A stretch of DNA of 64,000 bases, taken from Caldimonas tepidiphila (lineage in GTDB: Bacteria; Pseudomonadota; Gammaproteobacteria; Burkholderiales; Burkholderiaceae_C). Under the pieces are notes generated by a model. The model saw nothing but the letters and a program-made list of their open reading frames with translations. It was not told the DNA's origin and made no database searches. The stretch lies in contig NZ_QXMG01000002.1 of the NCBI RefSeq assembly GCF_003569765.1, forward strand, positions 1-64,000, read 5' to 3'. This document shows, piece by piece, positions 49,986 through 60,342 of the stretch (position 1 is the first letter of the stretch; every line of letters begins with the position of its first letter). The translations under genes were made by a program, and so were the position numbers.

Positions 49986-50002
49986 CGAACGTAATCTACA
50001 GG
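49986..50002 (+). repeat. 17-bp direct repeat, copy 1 (CGAACGTAATCTACAGG)
   Basis: Matches copy 2 at 50108-50124 at 16 of 17 positions. The two copies are 122 bases apart and frame a palindrome-rich segment upstream of the degenerate recombinase gene. Confidence 0.85.
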
Positions 50003-50008
50003 AGGTAA

Positions 50009-50116
50009 ATGGACAAACCTGAAAACACGCCGGGCTCCCCAGGAAAACGGGAGCGGCCCAGCTTGCAGGCGCCTGCGCCGCCCTGGGGAGATGCGGATGA
50101 ACCGATACGAATGTAA
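50009..50116 (+). CDS. Possible 35-codon leader peptide between the direct repeats
   Basis: ATG at 50009 follows AGGAGG (50000-50005, only three bases away) and reads MDKPENTPGSPGKRERPSLQ at the start to TAA at 50114-50116, inside repeat copy 2. The strong but very close ribosome-binding site and the hydrophilic, Pro-rich product make this uncertain. No similarity recognised. Confidence 0.25.
   Translation: MDKPENTPGSPGKRERPSLQAPAPPWGDADEPIRM
50035..50090 (+). repeat. Inverted repeat enclosing a 12-bp palindrome
   Basis: CTCCCCAGG (50035-50043) and CCTGGGGAG (50082-50090) are perfect 9-bp arms. In the 38-base loop, GCAGGCGCCTGC (50065-50076) is itself a perfect palindrome. The set can fold as a cruciform or an RNA stem. 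Confidence 0.8.
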
Positions 50117-50124
50117 TCTACAGG
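50108..50124 (+). repeat. 17-bp direct repeat, copy 2 (CGAATGTAATCTACAGG)
   Basis: One mismatch to copy 1. It contains the small palindrome TGTA-ATC-TACA (50112-50122), which in copy 1 is one base less symmetric. Confidence 0.85.
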
Positions 50125-50192: not shown

Positions 50193-51215
50193 ATGAACGC
50201 CCCGAGATCCCGGTCCCGGCGACCGGACGCACAAGCCGTCTTCGACCGATGGGCGACCTGGCGAAGCGCAGGCGACGCGAGGCCGCTGTCGGCGGCGTCG
50301 GTGGCCAAGTACGAGGCGATCTGGGGGCTCTGGGTGCGCTTCCTCCGCGATCGCAAGCGTTCCTGGCATGCCGCCGACGAGCAGGACGTGCACGCCTTCC
50401 TCGCCGCCTTGCAGCCGCGCGCGAGCGTGCGCGGGCTCGATACGCCCTCGCACGTCAGCCGCACCCGCTACCTGCGCGCGCTGCGCGCCGTCTACGCCCA
50501 CGCCGTGCTGCAGGACTGGATCGCCGCGAATCCCGCCGAGGCCACGCCCGAGGGGGCGCGCACCGAGGAGGCGGATTCCTTCGTGCTGAATGCGGCACAT
50601 CGCGCTGCGCTGCGGCGTCACCTGCCTGCGGGCGACGGCTGGCTCGCGGTGCGCGACCGTGCGCTGCTGCACCTGCTGATGGACGCGGCGCTGACCGTCG
50701 CCGAGCTCCGCACGCTGCGCGTCGCCCAGTTGCAACTCGGACCCGGTCGCCGCGCCGAGTTGCGGCTGGACGGGCCGCGCGCGGCGCAACGGCGCGCGCT
50801 CGACCTGCCCGAGGCGGCAGTGGGCGCGCTGCGACGCTGGCTACTCGTGCGCGGCACGGCGGCGCAGGACGAGCCTGTGTTCGTCTCCCGCAAGGGGCAC
50901 GCGATGCTGAGCGCGCGGGCGGTGTTCCATGTCGTGAGCGCGTTCGTGCTGCGCACGCTGCACGCCTGCGGGGAGTGCGGCGCAGTCGCGCATGTCGGGC
51001 CGAACGTGCTGCGCAACAGCGCGCTGGTGCAGTGGCTGGACGAGGGCCTCGCCGCCGGCGAGGTGGCGCGCCGCGCAGGGCTCGAATCGACGCGCATGCT
51101 GCTGCGGCTCGCGCCTCATTGCCTGCCCGCCGACCGGGATGCCGGCCGGGATGCCGGCACGCCCGGGGCCGGTAACGACACGGGCGCCGCCCGCGAGGAG
51201 GAGGAGACACGATGA
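50193..51215 (+). CDS. Tyrosine-recombinase-fold protein lacking catalytic residues
   Basis: About 340 residues. Residues 13-115 look like a SAM-like core-binding domain (VAKYEAIWGLWVRFL, RTRYLRALRAVYAHAV) and 150-310 like the recombinase catalytic domain (VRDRALLHLLMDAALTVAELRTL). The usual catalytic positions are replaced: the first Arg (in 'G-x-R-x-SEL') is Thr168, the H-x-x-R box reads N271-V-L-R274, the late His is Leu297, and no Tyr is found near 301-310. It should bind DNA but not cut it. The start is uncertain: in-frame ATGs at 50091 and 50097 (the latter behind GGGGAG) would add an unlike Lys/Arg-rich leader containing repeat copy 2. The stop overlaps the next gene as ATGA, so the two are translationally coupled. 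Confidence 0.7.
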   Translation: MNAPRSRSRRPDAQAVFDRWATWRSAGDARPLSAASVAKYEAIWGLWVRFLRDRKRSWHAADEQDVHAFLAALQPRASVRGLDTPSHVSRTRYLRALRAVYAHAVLQDWIAANPAEATPEGARTEEADSFVLNAAHRAALRRHLPAGDGWLAVRDRALLHLLMDAALTVAELRTLRVAQLQLGPGRRAELRLDGPRAAQRRALDLPEAAVGALRRWLLVRGTAAQDEPVFVSRKGHAMLSARAVFHVVSAFVLRTLHACGECGAVAHVGPNVLRNSALVQWLDEGLAAGEVARRAGLESTRMLLRLAPHCLPADRDAGRDAGTPGAGNDTGAAREEEETR

Positions 51216-52315
51216 ACCATCCGTCGGACGACCGGCTCAGCGCCGGCTGGCTCGCGCAGGTGCTGCGCGACCGCGGCATGCCGACGCCCGGCCCGCAGGA
51301 GGCGCGCCGCCTCGTCCGGGAGCTGGATGCGCAGCAGCGCCGCGAGGTGGTGCGCGCGCTGGAGCGGCTCGCGCTCGGCAGCGACGATGCCGAGGAGATG
51401 GAGTTGATGTCGCTGGCGTGGCGCAGCGTCTCGCCGGCGACGGTCCAGGCGCTGCACCGTGCCGGTGCGGACCTGGACGCGTCCGGCGCGCTGTCGATGT
51501 TCCGGCAGCACCCTGCGGCCGTCGCGGCGGTGTCGCGCGCGCTCGGCGAGGGGCCCCAGGCCGAGGCCGCCGTCGAGGAGTTGCGCGGCTACGCGGCGCC
51601 CTGGCAGCGCCCCCCGGATGCCGTGTCCGACGAGCCGGCCGGCCCCGACGAGGGGCAGGACACCGGCCCGCCCGGCCGGCACGCGCCCTCCAGGGCGCGC
51701 GAGGCGCTTGCGGAAGATGCGGACGAGGGGGAGGATGGGGACGACCGGGGAGCGGGCCGCACCGGGCAGACGCAAGCGCCGCAGCACGGCGCCGGCGCGC
51801 GTCCGCCCGCCGCCTTCTCCGCGCCCGAACCCCGGCCCGGGCGCCCCGTGCGCCCGCAGGCACGCGCCTACAGCAGCTCCGCCGCGATCGTCTTCGAGCT
51901 CGACACGCTGCGTGCGCCGGACGAGGCGGGGCCGCGGCACACGGTCTCGATCGAGGCCGCGGGCGGCCGCGGCGGCGAGGGCTACGACTGGGCCGACAAG
52001 ATCATCTTCCAGTGCACGCTGCGCGAGCTGCCGCAGGTGACGGCCTGCCTGATGGGCTGGACGCGCGAGCTCGAGTTCCGCGGCCACGGCGTCGGCCAGG
52101 ACAAGCGCCTCCTGATGCGCCACCAGGGCGACAGCGTCTACGTTCGGCTGCTGCAGGGGCGGCGTTCGGTGTCGCTGCCGGTGCATCGCGACGACCTGTA
52201 CGCGATCGTGCTGGTGTGCCTGCGCGCGCTGTCCGCCAACGACCCGGACGTACCGATACCGGCGCTGCTGGAGGTGATCCGCCAGCTCGCGCTCGCGCGC
52301 CAGGCGGCGGGCTGA
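51212..52315 (+). CDS. Uncharacterised partner protein with Whirly/PC4-like C-terminal domain
   Basis: 367 residues. Residues 1-132 are helical (VRELDAQQRREVVRALERL, SALSMFR-like segments); 133-218 form a Pro/Gly/acidic linker; 219-355 look like a beta-rich domain: SSAAIVFELDTL, then GYDWADKIIFQCTLRELPQV (about 257-276), ELEFRGHGVGQDKRLLMRHQ, VYVRLLQGRRSVSLPVHRDD and a final helix. The order of a 'YDW-x-x-K' start, a strand ending in a T/S-x-x-E-L helix, a 'F-x-H' segment and two strands with K/R recalls plant Whirly and PC4-like single-strand DNA-binding proteins. This is recognition by eye; no search was run. It is coupled to the inactive recombinase gene by ATGA, so they probably act together. 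Confidence 0.6.
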   Translation: MNHPSDDRLSAGWLAQVLRDRGMPTPGPQEARRLVRELDAQQRREVVRALERLALGSDDAEEMELMSLAWRSVSPATVQALHRAGADLDASGALSMFRQHPAAVAAVSRALGEGPQAEAAVEELRGYAAPWQRPPDAVSDEPAGPDEGQDTGPPGRHAPSRAREALAEDADEGEDGDDRGAGRTGQTQAPQHGAGARPPAAFSAPEPRPGRPVRPQARAYSSSAAIVFELDTLRAPDEAGPRHTVSIEAAGGRGGEGYDWADKIIFQCTLRELPQVTACLMGWTRELEFRGHGVGQDKRLLMRHQGDSVYVRLLQGRRSVSLPVHRDDLYAIVLVCLRALSANDPDVPIPALLEVIRQLALARQAAG

Positions 52316-54302: not shown

Positions 54303-55433
54303 TCAGTCGCGCTTCGGGGCTTCCTCCAGCAGGCGCGCGGCGCGCGCCTGCGCCGGGTCGGCCCGGAAATAGGTCGCGACGCCCTTCACCGACGCGTGAC
54401 CGGTCATCGCCATCGTCTCGGCGAGCGACACCTCCTGCCGCGCCGCCTCGGTGACGAAGCCGCTGCGGATCGAGTGCGCGGAGAAGGGCGTCTCGATGCC
54501 GGCGAGCGCGCAGCGCTTCACGACGATGTCGCGCACCGCCGCGGGCGACAGCGGCTCGGCGACGCGGTCGCCGCGCCGGATGCGGCGGAAGATCGGCCCG
54601 GACGCGATGCCGCTCGCGCGCAGCCAGGCCTCGAGCGCGTCGGCCGCGACGCCGACCACGGGCTTCACGTTCTCGGGCCGGTCGGCGCCCGCCTGGTTGG
54701 TCTTCGAGTGCAGCAGCGTGAAGGCGTAGGCGCGCTCGCCGGTCTTGCGCACGTTCTCGCAGGTGGCCTGCGTGACCTCCGAGCGGCGGCGCCCGCCGCT
54801 GGCCCAGGCGAACAGCAGCAGCGCGCGGTCGCGCAGGCCGCGCAGCGAGTCGTCGCAGGTGGCGAGCAGCGCCTCGAGCGGCTCGCGCGTCAGCGCCGGC
54901 TTGCGTGCCGGCGCCGCGCCGCGCCGGGCGTAGGCGCGGCGGATGCGCGACAGCAGCTCGCGCAGCTGCGCGCCGTGGCAGGGATTGGGCAGGTCCTTGA
55001 GCTGGTGCAGCTTCGACAGCACGCTCAGCCGGTGCGTCAGTGTCGCGAGCGAGGGCGCGCCGGGCCCTTGCTTGTAGCCGCCCTCGACCAGCGCGGCGTC
55101 GAGCTCGGGCGGCAGCTCGCAGGCGAGGCCGTTCGGCGTCGAGCGCTCGGCATGGTCCACGACGAACTGCAGCACCACCGCCTCGGACACCGGCAGCCGG
55201 ATCGGGCCGCCGTAGCGCAGCGCGTACCAGCCGGCCCAGTACTTCAGCGCGCTGCGGTAGCTGCGCAGCGTGTTCTCCGATTCGCCCTCGCGCATCAGCG
55301 CCCGCACCGCGTCCTGCGCCAGCTCCGACACCCGGGCCGGGTCGAGCGGCGCCAGGGGAGTGCTGGGGCTCACCGGCCGAAGTCCCTGCCCAGACAGGGG
55401 CGGGAAAGAAAGGGGAGCGCCTTCGTTATTCAT
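54303..55433 (-). CDS. Tyrosine recombinase/integrase, catalytically intact
   Basis: 376 residues. The N-terminal SAM-like domain (about 35-170) has SENTLRSYRSALKYWAGWY. The catalytic domain retains all residues: Arg216 in SGGRRRSEV, Lys244 in LLHSKTNQ, His320-x-x-Arg323 in SAHSIRSGF, His346 in TGHASV and Tyr355 in VATYFR. It should perform strand exchange at a short site. No integrated element, excisionase or att-like tRNA is nearby; it is divergent from a KfrA-like gene across an AT-rich 103-base region, which suggests a conserved chromosomal module rather than a recent prophage. Start ATG at 55433 lies in AT-rich sequence with GAAAAAATATGAATAA-type context and no clear ribosome-binding site. 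Confidence 0.85.
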   Translation of the reverse strand: MNNEGAPLSFPPLSGQGLRPVSPSTPLAPLDPARVSELAQDAVRALMREGESENTLRSYRSALKYWAGWYALRYGGPIRLPVSEAVVLQFVVDHAERSTPNGLACELPPELDAALVEGGYKQGPGAPSLATLTHRLSVLSKLHQLKDLPNPCHGAQLRELLSRIRRAYARRGAAPARKPALTREPLEALLATCDDSLRGLRDRALLLFAWASGGRRRSEVTQATCENVRKTGERAYAFTLLHSKTNQAGADRPENVKPVVGVAADALEAWLRASGIASGPIFRRIRRGDRVAEPLSPAAVRDIVVKRCALAGIETPFSAHSIRSGFVTEAARQEVSLAETMAMTGHASVKGVATYFRADPAQARAARLLEEAPKRD

Positions 55434-55536: not shown

Positions 55537-56589
55537 ATGAGCCGCGGGATCACCGAGAACGACGTCTGGCAGGCCGCCGACGCACTGCTGCTGGAAGGCG
55601 CGAAGCCGACGATCGAGCGCGTGCGGCAGAAGATCGGACGCGGCTCGCCCAACACCGTCAGCCCCTTGCTCGATGCCTGGTTCGGGCAGCTCGGCGCACG
55701 GCTGCAGGGGCACTCGGCGCCTGACACCACGCACTCCTTGCCGGAGCCGGTGCAGCAGGCTGCGCAGCAGCTCTGGGCGGCGGCACTGGCGGGGGCGCGT
55801 GCCGAGCTGGAGGAGGTCCACGCCCGGCGCAGCGGAGAACTGCAGGCGCAGCGCGAGACGCTCGCCCGCGAACGCGCCGAGCTCGACGCCGAGGCCGCGC
55901 ATCTCGCCGCCCGCCAGCAGGGGCTGGAGGAGGCGCTCGCGGCAACGCGCGCGCAGCTCGAGGAGGCGCAGCGCCAGCGCCACCAGCTCGAGAGCCGCCT
56001 CGCGGCGCAGCAGGCCGAAGGCGCCGCGCTGCGCGAGGAGGCCAGCGCCTCGCGCCGGCTGGCCCAGCAGCTCGCCGCGCAGCTCGAGGGCCAGCACCAG
56101 GCGCACGAGGCCGAGCGCCAGCGGCTCGAGGAGCGCGCCGCGGCTCACGAGCGGCGCTGGGCGCTCGAGCTCGACCGCACCCGCGATGCGCTCAAGCAGC
56201 TGCAGGCACGCATGAGCGCCGCCGAGGCCGATGCCGCGCGCCGCATCGCCGGGCTCGGCGCCGAGCGGGAGCGGCTCGAGGGCGCGCTGCGGGAGGCCCA
56301 GGCGGTGTCGACACGGCAGCGCCACGAGTCAGAGACCCTGGGGCTGCAGCTCGAGCAGGCCCGCGCGGCGCTCGCCGAGCACCGCGAAAGCGCCGCGCGC
56401 CGCGCCGAGGAGCTCGCGACGCAGCAGCGCCAGACGCAATCCCGGCTCGACGAGGCGCAGTCCAGACTCGACGAGACGCAGGCGCGGCTGGACGCGCGCG
56501 AGGCGGAGCATGCGGCGCTGCTGCGATCGCTCGCGGAAGCCGGCTTGCGCGGCCGCACCGCGCGGCGGCGCGGCACGTCGGAGGCTTGA
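55537..56589 (+). CDS. kfrA: KfrA-like DNA-binding protein with long coiled coil
   Basis: 350 residues. The KfrA_N helix-turn-helix domain covers about 2-65 (GITENDVWQAADALL, IERVRQKIGRGSPNTVSPLLDAWF). From about 75 to 335 the protein is an almost unbroken Glu/Gln/Arg/Ala-rich coiled coil (LEEVHARRSGELQAQ, QSRLDEAQSRLDETQ), with a basic C-terminal tail (RTARRRGTSEA). Plasmid KfrA proteins form filament-like structures and repress their own promoter. The ATG at 55537 follows GGAAAGGAAG; a GTG at 55501 inside the inverted repeat is less likely. Confidence 0.85.
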   Translation: MSRGITENDVWQAADALLLEGAKPTIERVRQKIGRGSPNTVSPLLDAWFGQLGARLQGHSAPDTTHSLPEPVQQAAQQLWAAALAGARAELEEVHARRSGELQAQRETLARERAELDAEAAHLAARQQGLEEALAATRAQLEEAQRQRHQLESRLAAQQAEGAALREEASASRRLAQQLAAQLEGQHQAHEAERQRLEERAAAHERRWALELDRTRDALKQLQARMSAAEADAARRIAGLGAERERLEGALREAQAVSTRQRHESETLGLQLEQARAALAEHRESAARRAEELATQQRQTQSRLDEAQSRLDETQARLDAREAEHAALLRSLAEAGLRGRTARRRGTSEA

Positions 56590-56608
56590 GGCCGGGCCTC
56601 GCGCCGGC

Positions 56609-57712
56609 TCAGTCCGGGGCGGGGCGGTCGATCGCCTCCAGCCAGTCGAACACGCGGGGCCACAGCGCGCGATGGGCGCCGCGGCCGATCAGCACGCCGA
56701 GGTGCTGCAGCCCGACGCCGACGTCGCGCTCGTAGTGCAGCACCAGCCGCCGCGGCAGCGGCGCCGCGTCGAGCAGCGCCAGCACCGAGCGCGCCGGCAC
56801 CATCTCGCTGTGCGGATCGACGATCGCGGCGACCGGCGCGCGCACCTGCGCCGCGCCGAGCAGCTGCCCGCCGACGGCGAGGGTGCCGCGCATGAAGCGG
56901 TCCTCGCGGTACAGCCCGTCCGCGACCTGCGCGAACAGCCGCCCGGACATCGGGAACTCGTCGAGCGTCCAGCGCAGCGCGAGCAGGTGGCTGCGCGCGA
57001 CCTTGCCGCCCTCGAGCGCGGCGGCCAGCGCGTCCAGGTGCCGTTCCCAGACGAACTCCCGTGGCGAGGCCAGCAGCGCGGCCAGGTTCAGCACGCTGCC
57101 CGGAACGCGGCCGAAGGCCTGCCCGACGAGCGCCCCCGGCGGCGAGCAGGCCAGCAGCGGCGCGAAGGCCCCGGCGTCCGCGCCGAAGCGCACCGGCGCC
57201 TCGACGAGCACCAGCGACGCGAGATCCTCGGGCCGCCGCGCCGCGTGCAGCGCGGCGAGCGTGCCGCCGAGCGAATGCCCGAGCAGGTGCGGCGTGCTTC
57301 CGGTGCGCCGCGCGATCTCGTCGACGCAGGCGCCTATCGCGGCCAGCGCCTCCTCCAGGCCCCAGTGCGCCGGGGCGGACGTCCACTCCAGCAGGTGCAC
57401 GACGCAGCCGCGCTGCAGCGCGTGGCGCACGACGCTGGCGGCGGGGGCGGGGTCCCAGATCCAGTGCCGCTTGATCGGTGCCGGCACGATCAGCAGCACT
57501 GGCCCGTCCCCGTCGTCCGGCAGGTAGCGCCGCAGCCGCAGGCCGGTGGTCTCGATCAGCGTCGTGCAGGGCGTCTCCAGCGGCGCGAACGAGGCGAGGT
57601 CGAGTCCGGCGCCGATGCAGCGCCGCAGCTGGTCCAGCCCGTGCAGGAACAGCGCGGCCGGGGCTGCCGGCAGCGCCGCGCCGCCGCGGTCCGCGGCCTC
57701 ATCCACCGGCAC
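56609..57712 (-). CDS. PhaC-like alpha/beta hydrolase with serine nucleophile
   Basis: 367 residues. The region VLLIVPAPIKRHWIWDPAPAASVVRHAL (about 65-95; core P-A-P-I-K) and HLLEWTSAP recall PHA synthases, but the nucleophile elbow is GHSLGGT (Ser about 140) where PhaC has Cys. A lid/insert at about 170-250, DPHSEMVP (Asp about 300) and a closing His follow. It could be an intracellular PHA hydrolase or an esterase; no direct evidence. The start is GTG at 57712 (or GTG at 57706, better spaced from GGAG). It converges on the KfrA-like gene with a 19-base gap. Confidence 0.6.
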   Translation of the reverse strand: MPVDEAADRGGAALPAAPAALFLHGLDQLRRCIGAGLDLASFAPLETPCTTLIETTGLRLRRYLPDDGDGPVLLIVPAPIKRHWIWDPAPAASVVRHALQRGCVVHLLEWTSAPAHWGLEEALAAIGACVDEIARRTGSTPHLLGHSLGGTLAALHAARRPEDLASLVLVEAPVRFGADAGAFAPLLACSPPGALVGQAFGRVPGSVLNLAALLASPREFVWERHLDALAAALEGGKVARSHLLALRWTLDEFPMSGRLFAQVADGLYREDRFMRGTLAVGGQLLGAAQVRAPVAAIVDPHSEMVPARSVLALLDAAPLPRRLVLHYERDVGVGLQHLGVLIGRGAHRALWPRVFDWLEAIDRPAPD

Positions 57713-57787
57713 GCTCCATCGTCTTCGGCGCGGTGTGCATGGATCGACCTCCTGCCAGGGAAAGGAAAAGGGGTTGAAGACGATCGC

Positions 57788-59647
57788 TCAGGGCAGGGGC
57801 TGCGCCGTCAGCTCGCAGGCCGGCCCCTCGTCGTTCAGCGCGAGCAGGCGCAGGCGCAGCCGGCTGCCGAGGTCGAGCTCCGCGTCCTGCCGGCACCAGA
57901 GCTCACGCGTGCCGTCCCAGGCCCAGCCCTGCGATTCGAGCGCTTGCGCGTCCAGCGCGGCCCCCACGTCCCAGCGGTCCAGCGAGGCGCGCAGTCCTCG
58001 CGCGCTGCGCGACACCACCTGCGCGTCGTGCTCGCGCTCGCCGCTGCGCCAGACCAGGCGGCGCTTGAGCCGCTCCCAGGGATGGCGGCTCGCCTGCCGC
58101 GCGGCGCGGGCGCGGTCCGACAGGTGCTCCGACAGCGCCGCATCCGCCTCGACCGCCTCGCCGAGCAGCATGCGGTGCACCAGCAGGTCCGCGTAGCGCC
58201 GGATCGGGCTGGTGAAATGGGTGTAGGCGTGGAAGCCGAGCGAGAAGTGCCGGCTCTGCCGCTCGTCGTAGGTGGCCGGGGTCATTGCGCGGCGCACGCG
58301 GAACTCGACCTGGGGCGCCACCGGCCGGCCTTCGACGCCCGCCAGCAGCGCGCGCAGCTCGGCGAGGGTCGGCACCGCGGGAGCCTCGATGCCGTGGCCG
58401 CGCAGCCATGCCAGCGTCTGCTGCCAGCGCTGCGCGTCGAGCCCCTCCTGGTGGCGGAACAGCAGCCCGGCGCCGAGCAGCGTCAGGTGCGCCGCCGCGG
58501 CGCGGTTCGCGGCGAGCATCGCCTCCTCGACCAACTCGTTGGAGCGCTCGACAGGCACCCACTCGATCGCGTGGCTACCATCCGGCCGGACCACCAACCG
58601 GGGCTCGTCGTCACGGTACTCGAACAGGCCGCGGCGCTCGCGCGCCGGCTGCTGCGTCCCGAACCATGTCCAGAGGTCCTGCAGCATCGGCCCGACCGCG
58701 GCCGGCACCTCGCCGCGTGCCACCTCGCCGTAGCTCAGCCGGGCCGCGGAGCGCATCAGCGCCTGGCAGAACGAGTAGCCAGTGAGCGCGCCCCGGCGCG
58801 AGTACTTCAGCGAGCACACCAGCGCGTAGCGCAGCACGCCGGGATTGAGCGAGCACAGCCCGTTCGACAGCTCGGGCGGCAGCATCGGCACGCTGCGGCC
58901 CGGCAGGTAGACGCTGGTGGCGCGCTCGCGCGCCTCGGCGTCGAGCGGACTGCCGGCGCGCACGTAGTGCGAGACATGCGCGATCGCGACGTGCAGCGTC
59001 CACTGCGGGCCCTCGTCGACGAGGCACAGCGCGTCGTCGAAGTCGCGCGTCGACTCGTTGTCGATGGTGACGAAGGGCAGGTGGGTGAGGTCGGCGAAAC
59101 CCAGCTCGCGGGCGCGCTCGGCGGAGGGCTCCTCGCCACTGCGCGCCTGCGCCAGCGCCGCCTCGCCGAAATCGACCGGCAGCCGCCACTTGGCGATCGC
59201 GTAGCGCTGGTCGAAGTCGCGGTCGTCGCGCGGGCCGAGATTCGCCACCAGCGTCGCGTCCACGCCCGGACGGCCGATTCCTTCGCCGGGCGCGACGCGC
59301 ACCTGAACGACGTCGGCAGGATCGACCGGCCGGCCCCCGGTGTCGACGCGGATCGGCACGTGGCAGGGCTCGTCGGGGCGCAGCCGGTGGCCGCCGCCGT
59401 CGGCAGGCTCGAGCTGACCGAGCCAGAAGCTTTCCGGGCGCTCCAGCACCTCGTGCACCACCGCGCCGAGCTGCTGGCGCTGCGGCGTGGCCGTCAGGCT
59501 GAAGCACACCCGGTCGCCGGGCAGCAGCGAGCGCATCTGCGGCGGCGAGACGAAGTAGTCCTCGCCGCCGTCCTGCTCGACGAAGCCGAAGCCGCGGGGA
59601 TGGGCGCTGATCACGCCCTGCATCGGCGCGGGAGTCGTCTCGGTCAT
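57788..59647 (-). CDS. RNase II/RNase R family 3'-5' exoribonuclease
   Basis: 619 residues, nearer to RNase II (644) than RNase R (about 810). An N-terminal cold-shock-like OB fold (GVISAHPRGFGFVEQDGGEDYFV, residues about 10-32 in two parts) precedes the RNB domain with the catalytic aspartates in TIDNESTRDFDDALCL (about 200-216) and HYVRAGSPLD; the closing RNB motif is HFTSPIRRYADLLVHR (about 475-490); a C-terminal S1-like domain is short. It degrades single-stranded RNA. Start ATG at 59647 with GGAGA upstream. Confidence 0.88.
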   Translation of the reverse strand: MTETTPAPMQGVISAHPRGFGFVEQDGGEDYFVSPPQMRSLLPGDRVCFSLTATPQRQQLGAVVHEVLERPESFWLGQLEPADGGGHRLRPDEPCHVPIRVDTGGRPVDPADVVQVRVAPGEGIGRPGVDATLVANLGPRDDRDFDQRYAIAKWRLPVDFGEAALAQARSGEEPSAERARELGFADLTHLPFVTIDNESTRDFDDALCLVDEGPQWTLHVAIAHVSHYVRAGSPLDAEARERATSVYLPGRSVPMLPPELSNGLCSLNPGVLRYALVCSLKYSRRGALTGYSFCQALMRSAARLSYGEVARGEVPAAVGPMLQDLWTWFGTQQPARERRGLFEYRDDEPRLVVRPDGSHAIEWVPVERSNELVEEAMLAANRAAAAHLTLLGAGLLFRHQEGLDAQRWQQTLAWLRGHGIEAPAVPTLAELRALLAGVEGRPVAPQVEFRVRRAMTPATYDERQSRHFSLGFHAYTHFTSPIRRYADLLVHRMLLGEAVEADAALSEHLSDRARAARQASRHPWERLKRRLVWRSGEREHDAQVVSRSARGLRASLDRWDVGAALDAQALESQGWAWDGTRELWCRQDAELDLGSRLRLRLLALNDEGPACELTAQPLP

Positions 59648-59781
59648 GGGCAGGTTTCTCCGGGAAAACGGGGGCGACGCAGGCGAGGCCGGGGCAGGGC
59701 GCGCGGCGCCCGACCGAGGTGCAGCATGCCGCATTCCCGCCGGCCGCATGGCGGCGGAGCGCCGATTGCTGGGTCGCGGAC

Positions 59782-60342
59782 ATGTCGCAATCGAGAACTC
59801 CCGCGTTCCCGCCCGCCTTGCCGGCGATGCTGGACCTGGAGGCGTCCGGATTCGGCCGGGGCAGCTACCCGATCGAGGTGGGCTTCGTGCTCCCGGACGG
59901 GGAAGCCGTCTGCAGCCTGATCCGTCCGCCGCCGCACTGGACGCACTGGGATCCGGCGGCGGAGCGCGTCCACGGCATCGCGCACGAGCGGCTGCTGGCG
60001 CAGGGCCGCCCCGTGCGGGAGGTGGCCGAGTTGCTCAACGCGCGGCTCGGCGGGCTGACCGTCTACAGCGACAACTGGGGTTTCGACTACACCTGGCTCG
60101 GCCGGCTGCACGACGAGGCGGGAATCTTCCCGGCGTACCGGCTCGAGCACCTGCGCCGCTTGCTGAGCGACGCCGAGGCCGCACGCTGGCACGAGGCGAA
60201 GCAGCAGGTCGAGGGCCGGCTGAAACTGCGGCGCCACCGCGCCAGCACCGACGCGCGGCTGCTTCAGTGCACGCTCGCCTACCTGCGCGGCCAGCACCTC
60301 GGCCCCGACCCGCTCGACGGCCGGCTCGCCGCCACGTCGTGA
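59782..60342 (+). CDS. DnaQ-like (DEDDh) 3'-5' exonuclease
   Basis: 186 residues. Exo I motif MLDLEASGFGRGSYPIEVG (Asp and Glu at about 15-17), WDPAAERVHGIAHERLL, Exo II VYSDNWGFDYTWL (Asp about 100) and Exo III HRASTDARL (His-x4-Asp near 165) complete the four-acid plus His set. The substrate (RNA or DNA) is not clear. It is divergent from the RNase II-family gene across 134 bases. The start at 59782 was chosen because the family fold begins soon after it; the ribosome-binding site is weak. Confidence 0.8.
   Translation: MSQSRTPAFPPALPAMLDLEASGFGRGSYPIEVGFVLPDGEAVCSLIRPPPHWTHWDPAAERVHGIAHERLLAQGRPVREVAELLNARLGGLTVYSDNWGFDYTWLGRLHDEAGIFPAYRLEHLRRLLSDAEAARWHEAKQQVEGRLKLRRHRASTDARLLQCTLAYLRGQHLGPDPLDGRLAATS

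Follow-up and report, generated by a model that had tools for sequence, protein, structure and literature searches.

Replication fork traps have been described from a few gammaproteobacterial clades, where the terminator protein is Tus, and from some Bacillales, where it is RTP (PMC6549158, PMC10331603). Both tus and rtp have a ter site in their own promoter, and tus is perhaps plasmid-derived (PMC10331603, PMC6549158). Ter sites close to the origin exist in plasmid R1 (PMC10331603). Why some bacteria possess fork traps is an open question in the field. Whirly (WHY) proteins have been described in plants and some algae, with none reported in the cyanobacterium Synechococcus (PMC10909546).

The window, which is the whole stretch of 64,000 nucleotides from Caldimonas tepidiphila that was analysed, contains a two-gene operon, P1-P2, preceded by two copies of a short site. 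These features are:

49990..50000, minus strand: upstream site copy, CGTAATCTACA on the plus strand, with one mismatch to TGTAATCTACA.
50112..50122, minus strand: downstream site copy, TGTAATCTACA on the plus strand and TGTAGATTACA on the minus strand, a near-palindrome of the form TGTA-N3-TACA.
50193..51215, plus strand: P1, 340 aa (range includes the stop), a catalytically dead tyrosine-recombinase-fold protein.
51212..51215, plus strand: ATGA overlap joining P1 and P2.
51212..52315, plus strand: P2, 367 aa, with a helical N-terminal part (residues ~6-131), a low-confidence linker (~132-213), and a C-terminal Whirly-like domain.
51851..52246, plus strand: Whirly-like domain of P2, residues ~214-345, in the order b-b-b-b-a-b-b-b-b-a (secondary structure from a weak model, Foldseek, and the family profile).

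On balance, the evidence leans towards P1 and its sites being a replication fork trap whose terminator protein is a dead recombinase, unrelated to Tus and RTP, with both binding and fork arrest being inferred. In the open-access literature searched, no title or abstract opening was found on a dead tyrosine recombinase as a terminator, on a betaproteobacterial fork trap, or on a bacterial Whirly of the P2 kind.

P1 has the build of a tyrosine recombinase, an N-terminal SAM-like domain and a C-terminal catalytic-domain fold. There are Pfam matches to Phage_integrase (E 5.1e-8) and to a SAM-like domain (E 1.6e-4); XerD, XerH, and Cre are among the matches in a PDB profile search, the top match (E 2.5e-15) being to a chain labelled RaiA in the table; and the AlphaFold model (pLDDT 84) has Cre, XerA, XerD, and XerH as Foldseek relatives. 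The start at 50193 agrees with the homologues, and a longer in-frame start is present at 50091. P1 falls below the NCBIfam equivalog cut-offs for XerC (59.4 versus 335.15 bits) and XerD (45.9 versus 329.6). Likewise, there is no match to Tus (PF05472) or RTP (PF02334), a Pfam scan to E 10 having returned integrase families only, and no PADLOC anti-phage model matched P1, P2, or a second recombinase near the operon at E up to 0.01.

An active enzyme would have Arg-I, the HxxR box, the second His/Trp, and the nucleophilic Tyr; P1 fails this test, as does its family. In P1, T168 is in the place of Arg-I, the other replaced positions hold N271, N275, and L297, Arg-II (R274) is kept, and the only tyrosines are at 40, 93, and 101, with none beyond 101. 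In the family alignment (53 rows, including the P1 of the window, with two records entered twice), Arg-II is kept in 53 rows and Arg-I in two, neither His is present in any row that could be judged, and a correctly spaced Tyr is found in one. Since Arg-I, both His, and the Tyr have been lost, DNA cutting by the known chemistry is not expected of P1, and recent decay is ruled out by the family-wide character of the loss. A sequence-specific, clamp-type binding of DNA may have been kept, although this is inferred and there are no binding data.

It could be argued that P1 is an integrase in decay and that the gene pair is left over from a mobile element. In support of this, the second recombinase gene nearby (54303-55433) is apparently intact, P1 is found on plasmids rich in insertion elements, and the copy on pW11NP2 is interrupted by an insertion element. 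Against it, the 53 rows have lost identical residues but kept the framework, the gene neighbours of P1 are kept within Comamonas/Delftia and within Polaromonas, and P1 co-occurs with the site. Integrase decay is therefore very unlikely and was rejected because the losses are common to the 53 rows.

P2 carries a Whirly-like domain, based on sequence evidence at the level of the family and fold evidence from the model. The profile of the 14-member P2 family matches the plant Whirly PBF-2 (1l3a; E 1.2e-5), and Pfam Whirly (PF08536) is matched at E up to 1 by 12 of the 14 members (best 6.3e-7); P2 alone has no Pfam match to Whirly. The structure model of P2 is weak overall (3 sequences, pLDDT 54), and its top 16 Foldseek matches in the PDB are all Whirly proteins (PBF-2, WHY1-3; E 1.5e-5 to 4.6e-4; TM by target 0.52-0.63). 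P2 has only a degenerate form (SSSAAI) of the KGKAAL-like stretch. Binding of single-stranded DNA by P2 and a role at stalled forks are inferred.

The P1-P2 pairing is a recurrent but minority, facultative arrangement. P2 adjoins P1 in 8 of 56 P1 loci (7 distinct), including pOS401, which also has a 4-base overlap, and in the other 48 no P2 homologue was found in the stretch of sequence examined, some stretches being short. No relatives of P1 or P2 were found in viral contigs by pattern scans. A second copy of P1 is present in the genome of the window, on contig C23.

The original prediction, made from sequence alone, proposed two open reading frames at these positions coupled by ATGA, a recombinase fold with its catalytic residues replaced, and a Whirly/PC4-like fold in the last 140 residues of P2. 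The positions and the coupling are confirmed. Structure prediction and fold searching found the recombinase fold for P1, with Thr168, Asn271, and Leu297 confirmed, and a Whirly fold for P2, the latter claim holding for Whirly through the profile, the Pfam matches of relatives, and Foldseek. The prediction was silent on the retained Arg274 (Arg-II), which is added here. Recent decay, which would have been indicated by homologues with intact catalytic residues, is not borne out by the alignment, and the expectation of conserved pairing held only partly, being met in 8 of 56 loci and not in general.

The two site copies in front of the operon have the same direction, are 122 bp apart, and share 18 of 24 surrounding bases. 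The copy at 50112 is the sole exact TGTAATCTACA in the 5.47 Mb draft genome of the organism, and the looser TGTANNNTACA is not enriched there (2 copies, equal to the reversed control). In pOS401, two inverted copies of the TGTAATCTACA 11-mer precede P1, and the P1 operon of the R. ferrireducens plasmid is preceded by such an inverted pair too. A perfect ATGTANNNTACAT is present within 450 bp upstream of P1 in 20 of 55 loci (17 of 52 once three duplicated records are removed), compared with zero in 50 rounds of mononucleotide shuffling; this pattern is looser and chance matches do occur, its reversed control being found in 5 of 15 genomes or records. The 12 Polaromonas-type loci lack such a site upstream; the clades without a site match include the Polaromonas chromosomes and C. 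aquatica/kerstersii. On the P1 protein tree the site class is clustered, and the GAT class, to which the window belongs, does not form a single clade; the kind of site found in the window also precedes distant P1 relatives.

The version of the site found in relatives, ATGTAAGTTACAT, is present in 24 of the 44 genomes that make up the Comamonas/Delftia sample, with one copy in 4, two in 17, and three in 3, while its reversed control is absent from all 44. P1 is present in 32 of these genomes and absent from 12. All 24 site-bearing genomes have P1, and in 23 the P1 match has a copy no more than 260 bp away (the exception is G436). None of the 12 genomes lacking P1 has ATGTAAGTTACAT, and eight with P1 have no exact site (Fisher 6e-6). 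Close relatives with and without P1 (32 versus 12) are a ready-made comparison.

Where copies of ATGTAAGTTACAT are on opposite strands of one contig, the left copy is on the minus strand and the right on the plus strand in 10 of 10 genomes, at distances of 25-244 kb. Likewise, where a contig carries a pair of P1 paralogues (four genomes), their order is minus then plus in every case. Among the 15 genomes with at least two sites per contig, five have same-strand neighbours only, 1.3-3.9 kb apart. Due to shared ancestry, the ten pairs are not ten independent events. Four of the ten genomes were examined for GC skew, and the cumulative maximum lies between the sites in each, with mean skew of +0.041 to +0.059 to the left, -0.006 to +0.019 between the sites, and -0.036 to -0.046 to the right. 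A three-segment fit of the skew, blind to the sites, placed six of eight borders no more than 16 kb from a site, the remaining two being 65 and 73 kb away.

A dif-like 28-mer, found as a ranked match and resembling the published R. ferrireducens dif (PMC2731167), is also between the sites in all four genomes. It is the best match in three; in G101 the stretch (18/28) is tied with at least four others and was chosen because it resembles the matches of the other three genomes and the R. ferrireducens dif. A search for an E. coli-like dif pattern, allowing 3 mismatches at most, found none in 9 of 10 genomes, including all of the Comamonas/Delftia ones, and looser dif regular expressions had no shared match; the idea that the conserved motif is itself dif was rejected. 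The layout of a fork trap, with inverted sites around the terminus and dif and the gene beside a site, is met in the Comamonas/Delftia relatives only.

One alternative is that P1 represses its own gene and has a very small regulon, in which the site is its operator and the second copy controls one neighbouring gene. This is supported by the many loci in which a site precedes P1 by 20-82 bp, by the site pair between divergent genes in pOS401 and the R. ferrireducens plasmid, by the second Comamonas site ~390-530 bp before a dusA-like gene in two genomes, and by an extra Delftia site between tandem genes, which is 154 bp ahead of one of them and could therefore be a promoter site. However, four genomes have the second site 53-88 bp beyond the 3′ end of an acyl-CoA-ligase-like gene, the genes past it differ among genomes, and in two of the four, G439 and G453, it is in convergent intergenic DNA and so is not a promoter site there. 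Nor are the outward order and the bracketing of dif and the skew switch explained. Because the second site is not at a promoter, the operator reading was demoted to a rival and is considered unlikely. The genes dusA, acyl-CoA ligase, glyoxalase, chemotaxis-receptor-like gene, TatD, DNA glycosylase, the DnaA of NFYY023, and parA/parB of locus L011 were named by eye from translations.

It is also unlikely that P1 marks the terminus without fork arrest, through segregation, an accessory role with dif/XerCD, or MatP-like organisation of the terminus, although the sites do flank the dif-like sequence and P1 is related to the Xer recombinases. The matS sites are numerous, whereas there are only one to three sites per genome here. 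The strict opposite orientation at 25-244 kb better suits polar borders, and near-zero skew between the sites is expected for a zone entered by both forks.

On the fork-trap reading, P1 would bind the near-palindromic TGTA-N3-TACA-type site before its own gene, with autoregulation as the predicted consequence of its position at its own promoter. In Comamonas/Delftia chromosomes it would also bind the inverted site at the opposite border of the terminus, and bound P1 would be a polar barrier, such that forks may enter the dif zone and cannot exit. Plasmids encode their own P1, often with a nearby site pair, and some, like the operon of the window, add P2, the Whirly domain of which would bind the single-stranded DNA that becomes exposed where forks are arrested or converge. 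In Comamonas-type bacteria, the P1 family seems to mark the replication terminus as Tus does in E. coli, the two proteins being unrelated.

That the copy in the window has the same function is likewise inferred. A terminus location is not shown for it, given a draft genome and two same-direction sites. The GC skew of contigs C2 and C23 is noisy, with no clear switch on C2 near the window; on C23 there is a change of sign close to the second copy of P1, and elsewhere too. Placement of the window through an RNase-R-like gene in 7 relatives failed, the best matches being just 38-39% identical and therefore probably not orthologues.

The plasmid and window sites could alternatively be an element for replication, copy control, or partition. 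In p1-T1 the pair is at the origin, beside a replication initiation gene near the skew minimum, and ranks 330 of 367 as a plus-to-minus skew switch; P1-P2 of L011 precedes parA/parB-like genes; and relatives of P2, found on large plasmids, are located near par, rep, and HDOD genes. Against this, the pair is on the terminus side in the other three of four plasmids tested, ranking high as a skew switch (12 of 611, 3 of 515, and 30 of 381), and R1 has origin-proximal ter sites too (PMC10331603), therefore p1-T1 does not exclude a terminator. This alternative is considered unlikely.

The original prediction further suggested that P1 keeps a DNA-binding role at the repeats before the operon, together with a single-strand-binding partner, with replication among several listed options. 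The repeats are real and contain the TGTA-N3-TACA site. The role is supported by the conserved loss, the recurring site, the clustering of site class on the tree, and the Whirly-like domain of P2, with binding to double or single strands remaining inferred, and the evidence from relatives points to replication termination.

A bolder reading, slightly more likely to hold than to fail, is that this is a third independent kind of bacterial terminator, in which a dead recombinase clamps the inverted borders of the Comamonadaceae terminus and traps forks around dif, having spread, and perhaps been domesticated, from plasmids, with a bacterial Whirly as the single-strand-binding partner in the plasmid-type operon of the window. 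If true, a third trap of other protein origin would be a new case of independent convergence, the betaproteobacteria would gain a terminator, and a route from DNA-cutting clamp to roadblock would be shown. The P2 family would offer a bacterial Whirly-like group for the study of single-strand handling.

In comparison with known systems, Tus-Ter of E. coli and its relatives likewise has the terminator gene beside its promoter site and dif inside, and its type I trap has one site at either side of the terminus, with plasmid and chromosomal versions (PMC10331603, PMC6549158). P1 differs in its tyrosine-recombinase fold, the absence of a Tus match, a near-palindromic site, and its presence in betaproteobacteria, arrest by P1 being inferred. 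The terR of R1 has two ter sites near the origin, as in p1-T1 (PMC10331603), but R1 relies on host Tus whereas P1 plasmids encode their own P1. RTP-Ter of Bacillus subtilis shares inverted sites around the terminus and autoregulation (PMC10331603), the latter inferred for P1, which has no RTP match, another fold, and mostly one site per border. XerC/XerD and other tyrosine recombinases share the fold and two-domain build of P1, which lacks their Arg-I, both His, and Tyr. Plant Whirly proteins (PBF-2, WHY1-3) are like the C-terminal domain of P2 by family profile, Pfam match of relatives, fold, and strand order, whereas P2 is bacterial, has an additional helical N-terminal part, and has its relatives on large plasmids.

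According to the original prediction, repeats in front of an operon may be bound by two coupled proteins, an inactive tyrosine-recombinase-fold protein (P1) and a Whirly/PC4-like protein (P2). Both open reading frames were found where it had placed them, and the replaced residues that it named in P1 (Thr168, Asn271, and Leu297) are confirmed.

Features of the window
49990, copy of the P1 site with one mismatch
50112, exact copy of the P1 site
50193-51215, forward strand, P1, 340 aa
51212-52315, forward strand, P2, 367 aa
54303-55433, reverse strand, second tyrosine recombinase, 376 aa, adjoining ilvD; HxxR, GH, and Tyr positions apparently intact
56231-59920, forward strand, open frame of 1229 residues, apparently an antisense artefact of high GC content

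In Pfam, P1 hits Phage_integrase and a SAM-like domain. It scores far under the cut-offs of the XerC and XerD models, and Cre, XerA, XerD, and XerH are among its best structural matches. T168 stands at the Arg-I place, N271 at the His place, and L297 at the second His/Trp place; Arg-II is retained as R274, next to N275, and the last tyrosine is residue 101, with none beyond. No homology to Tus or RTP was found. P1 is therefore classed neither with active tyrosine recombinases, because the defining residues are absent, nor with these terminator proteins, because homology is lacking. The second recombinase in the window shows BLASTP similarity to P1 at chance level only.

For relatives of P1, tblastn against 72,556 plasmid records returned 99 with an E limit of 1e-3, ordinary XerC genes included. 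A pattern scan of a species-genome collection returned 35 P1-type loci, chiefly in Polaromonas, Comamonas, and Delftia, and a profile search with an E limit of 1e-20 was positive in 44 of the family's 398 genomes. The alignment has 53 rows, leaving out two fragments and one duplicate and keeping two duplicates. Arg-I is retained in only two rows (loci L034 and L011) and neither His is present in any judgeable row, the His residues of L030 not being judgeable where an insertion element interrupts the end of P1. Arg-II is present in 53/53, in the box G-x-x-x-[LIV]-R-N. A Tyr is present three residues beyond the usual place in some Comamonas rows and at the usual spacing in L011. As these losses are common across the rows, loss of catalysis in the P1 family is old and general. 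In three chromosomal Polaromonas loci (L061, L065, and L066), P1 is part of a gene row in which TatD-like genes come before it, joined in two of these loci by DNA-glycosylase-like genes (names given by eye); no recognizable site lies upstream of P1 in the three.

The repeats in front of the operon hold the exact 11-mer TGTAATCTACA at 50112 and the one-mismatch copy at 49990. In the 5.47 Mb draft genome this 11-mer has a single copy, and plasmid pOS401 and the R. ferrireducens plasmid have two each; all of these copies precede P1 or the P1 operon. Searches of five other genomes or records found no copy, and there were no hits for the reversed control. The looser TGTANNNTACA has two copies in the draft genome, equal to its control. 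A perfect ATGTANNNTACAT lies upstream in 20 of 55 P1 loci (17 of 52 without duplicated records) and a one-mismatch form in five, while mononucleotide shuffles of the upstream regions never gave a perfect match (one-mismatch, 0.22). Plasmid clades have a similar arrangement built from different sequences: pPNAP01, pPNAP02, and pW11NP2 carry CATTTACAACAAA as inverted pairs, and TACATGACC-type sites are inverted in two plasmids, direct in one, and single in others. Site class clusters on the P1 protein tree, where 18/18 AGT-centre members form one supported branch; the GAT class, including the window, is not a single branch. These classes were defined post hoc, after inspection.

Among 44 genomes of the Comamonas/Delftia genus, ATGTAAGTTACAT is present in 24 (one copy in four, two in 17, three in three), with none for its reversed control. 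All 24 carry P1, and in 23 (all but G436) a copy lies no more than 260 bp from the P1 match; ATGTAAGTTACAT is in 0/12 P1-free genomes, and eight genomes have P1 without the exact site (Fisher 6e-6). Opposite-strand copies share a contig in ten genomes, 25-244 kb apart and ordered minus then plus in all; in five further genomes, the neighbouring copies that share a contig are all on the same strand. Two of these five (G419 and G432), together with G413 and G441, have a second P1 paralogue approximately 31-53 kb off, the genes running minus then plus. The second site lies 53-88 bp beyond the 3′ end of an acyl-CoA-ligase-like gene in G429, G439, G453, and G409, convergent with the next gene in two of them, and has differing neighbours in G101, G408, and G410. 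The third Delftia site is between tandem genes. In Delftia-type genomes, one border carries a pair of sites that point the same way and are separated by 1.9 kb, which recalls a primary ter site with its backup (G453 contig C1, 3170485 and 3172342; also G141 contig C62 and G412 contig C25).

In C. testosteroni NFYY023 (G101), whose 4,136,480 bp record starts with a DnaA-like frame, the sites lie at 2,045,587 and 2,093,196, and GC skew is mostly positive to their left, near zero between them, and mostly negative to their right. Three further genomes, chosen by us from the ten with opposite-strand pairs (G429, G439, and G453), show skews of +0.041 to +0.047 to the left, 0.000 to +0.019 between the sites, and -0.036 to -0.046 to the right, and the cumulative maximum of the stretch analysed falls between the sites in each. 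A site-blind three-segment fit placed 6/8 borders no more than 16 kb from a site; in G439 and G453 the left border is off by 65 and 73 kb. All four genomes have, between the sites, a dif-like 28-mer with core ATACGATGTAT-TTATGTT, the weakest being that of G101; this core is also that of the published R. ferrireducens dif (PMC2731167).

Fifteen plasmid loci with P1 were available, and four whole plasmids were tested for skew. In three, the site pair ranks high as a plus-to-minus switch (12 of 611, 3 of 515, and 30 of 381 positions); the cumulative maximum is less than 450 bp from the sites in the R. ferrireducens plasmid and approximately 6 kb away in pOS401. In p1-T1, the inverted pair (NZ_CP021649.1, approximately 100382-100508) is near the skew minimum (rank 330 of 367) and adjoins the rep gene, reminiscent of the terR sites of plasmid R1. 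Since R1 also has ter sites close to its origin (PMC10331603), the p1-T1 pair may be of R1 type, or it may be evidence against a terminator role on p1-T1.

A P2 homologue follows P1 in eight of 56 loci examined, seven of them distinct.

P1 followed by a P2 homologue
The window
pOS401 (record present twice), 4-base overlap retained
Rhodoferax contig, with a P1 almost the same as in pOS401
JS666 plasmid 2
pPNAP01
pPNAP02, P2 shortened
L011, a distant plasmid-like contig

P2 tblastn against the same plasmid records, with the same E limit, gave 103 records, and relatives outside the pair lie near HDOD, bactofilin-type, PRTRC ParB, and rep genes. Three (L016, L017, and L018) are in a recurring plasmid gene row with PD-(D/E)XK nuclease and polymer-forming cytoskeletal (bactofilin-type) genes. 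By itself, P2 had no hit within the limits applied to Pfam, PHROGs, and NCBIfam. Its family profile reaches plant PBF-2 (E 1.2e-5) and WHY3 (E 0.0023), and with E values up to 1 admitted, Pfam Whirly is hit by 12/14 members of the family, the best at 6.3e-7. The structure model is weak overall (three sequences, pLDDT 54); its C-terminal half has four strands, a helix, four strands, and a helix, and the top 16 PDB chains in Foldseek are all Whirly, followed by MRP1/MRP2, with PUR proteins lower. The predicted Whirly-like C-terminal part is thus upheld by family profile and fold, and the bacterial group to which P2 belongs is Whirly-like on both counts, single-stranded DNA binding being inferred. 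A plant review places Whirly proteins in plants and some algae, with none in Synechococcus (PMC10909546).

For the chromosomal members in Comamonas/Delftia, there is good support for the terminator reading. The window operon resembles the plasmid type. Its two sites share one direction, the contig carrying it (C2) shows no clear skew switch at the window (the draft has 178 contigs), and P1 was absent from the six other genomes of the window's genus covered by the profile search of family genomes; a terminator role is therefore suggested there by analogy only. The draft has a second, likewise dead, P1 copy (L054, 9471-10475, contig C23; 39 % identical), which may mark the opposite border of the terminus zone. 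GC skew flips sign near this copy, in a noisy profile. Overall, the original prediction is real, and of greater interest than first stated.

Tyrosine recombinases encircle DNA like a clamp. A dead P1 clamp on an inverted site pair might make a sound roadblock, and P2 may be a single-strand binder at arrested forks, the latter inferred from fold and operon only. On present evidence P1 appears to work like a fork-trap protein, with binding, arrest, and polarity all inferred. The tus and rtp promoters each hold a ter site, and tus is thought to be plasmid-derived (PMC10331603, PMC6549158); P1 shares this anatomy, with a site in front of its own gene, but its fold is unrelated to those of Tus and RTP.
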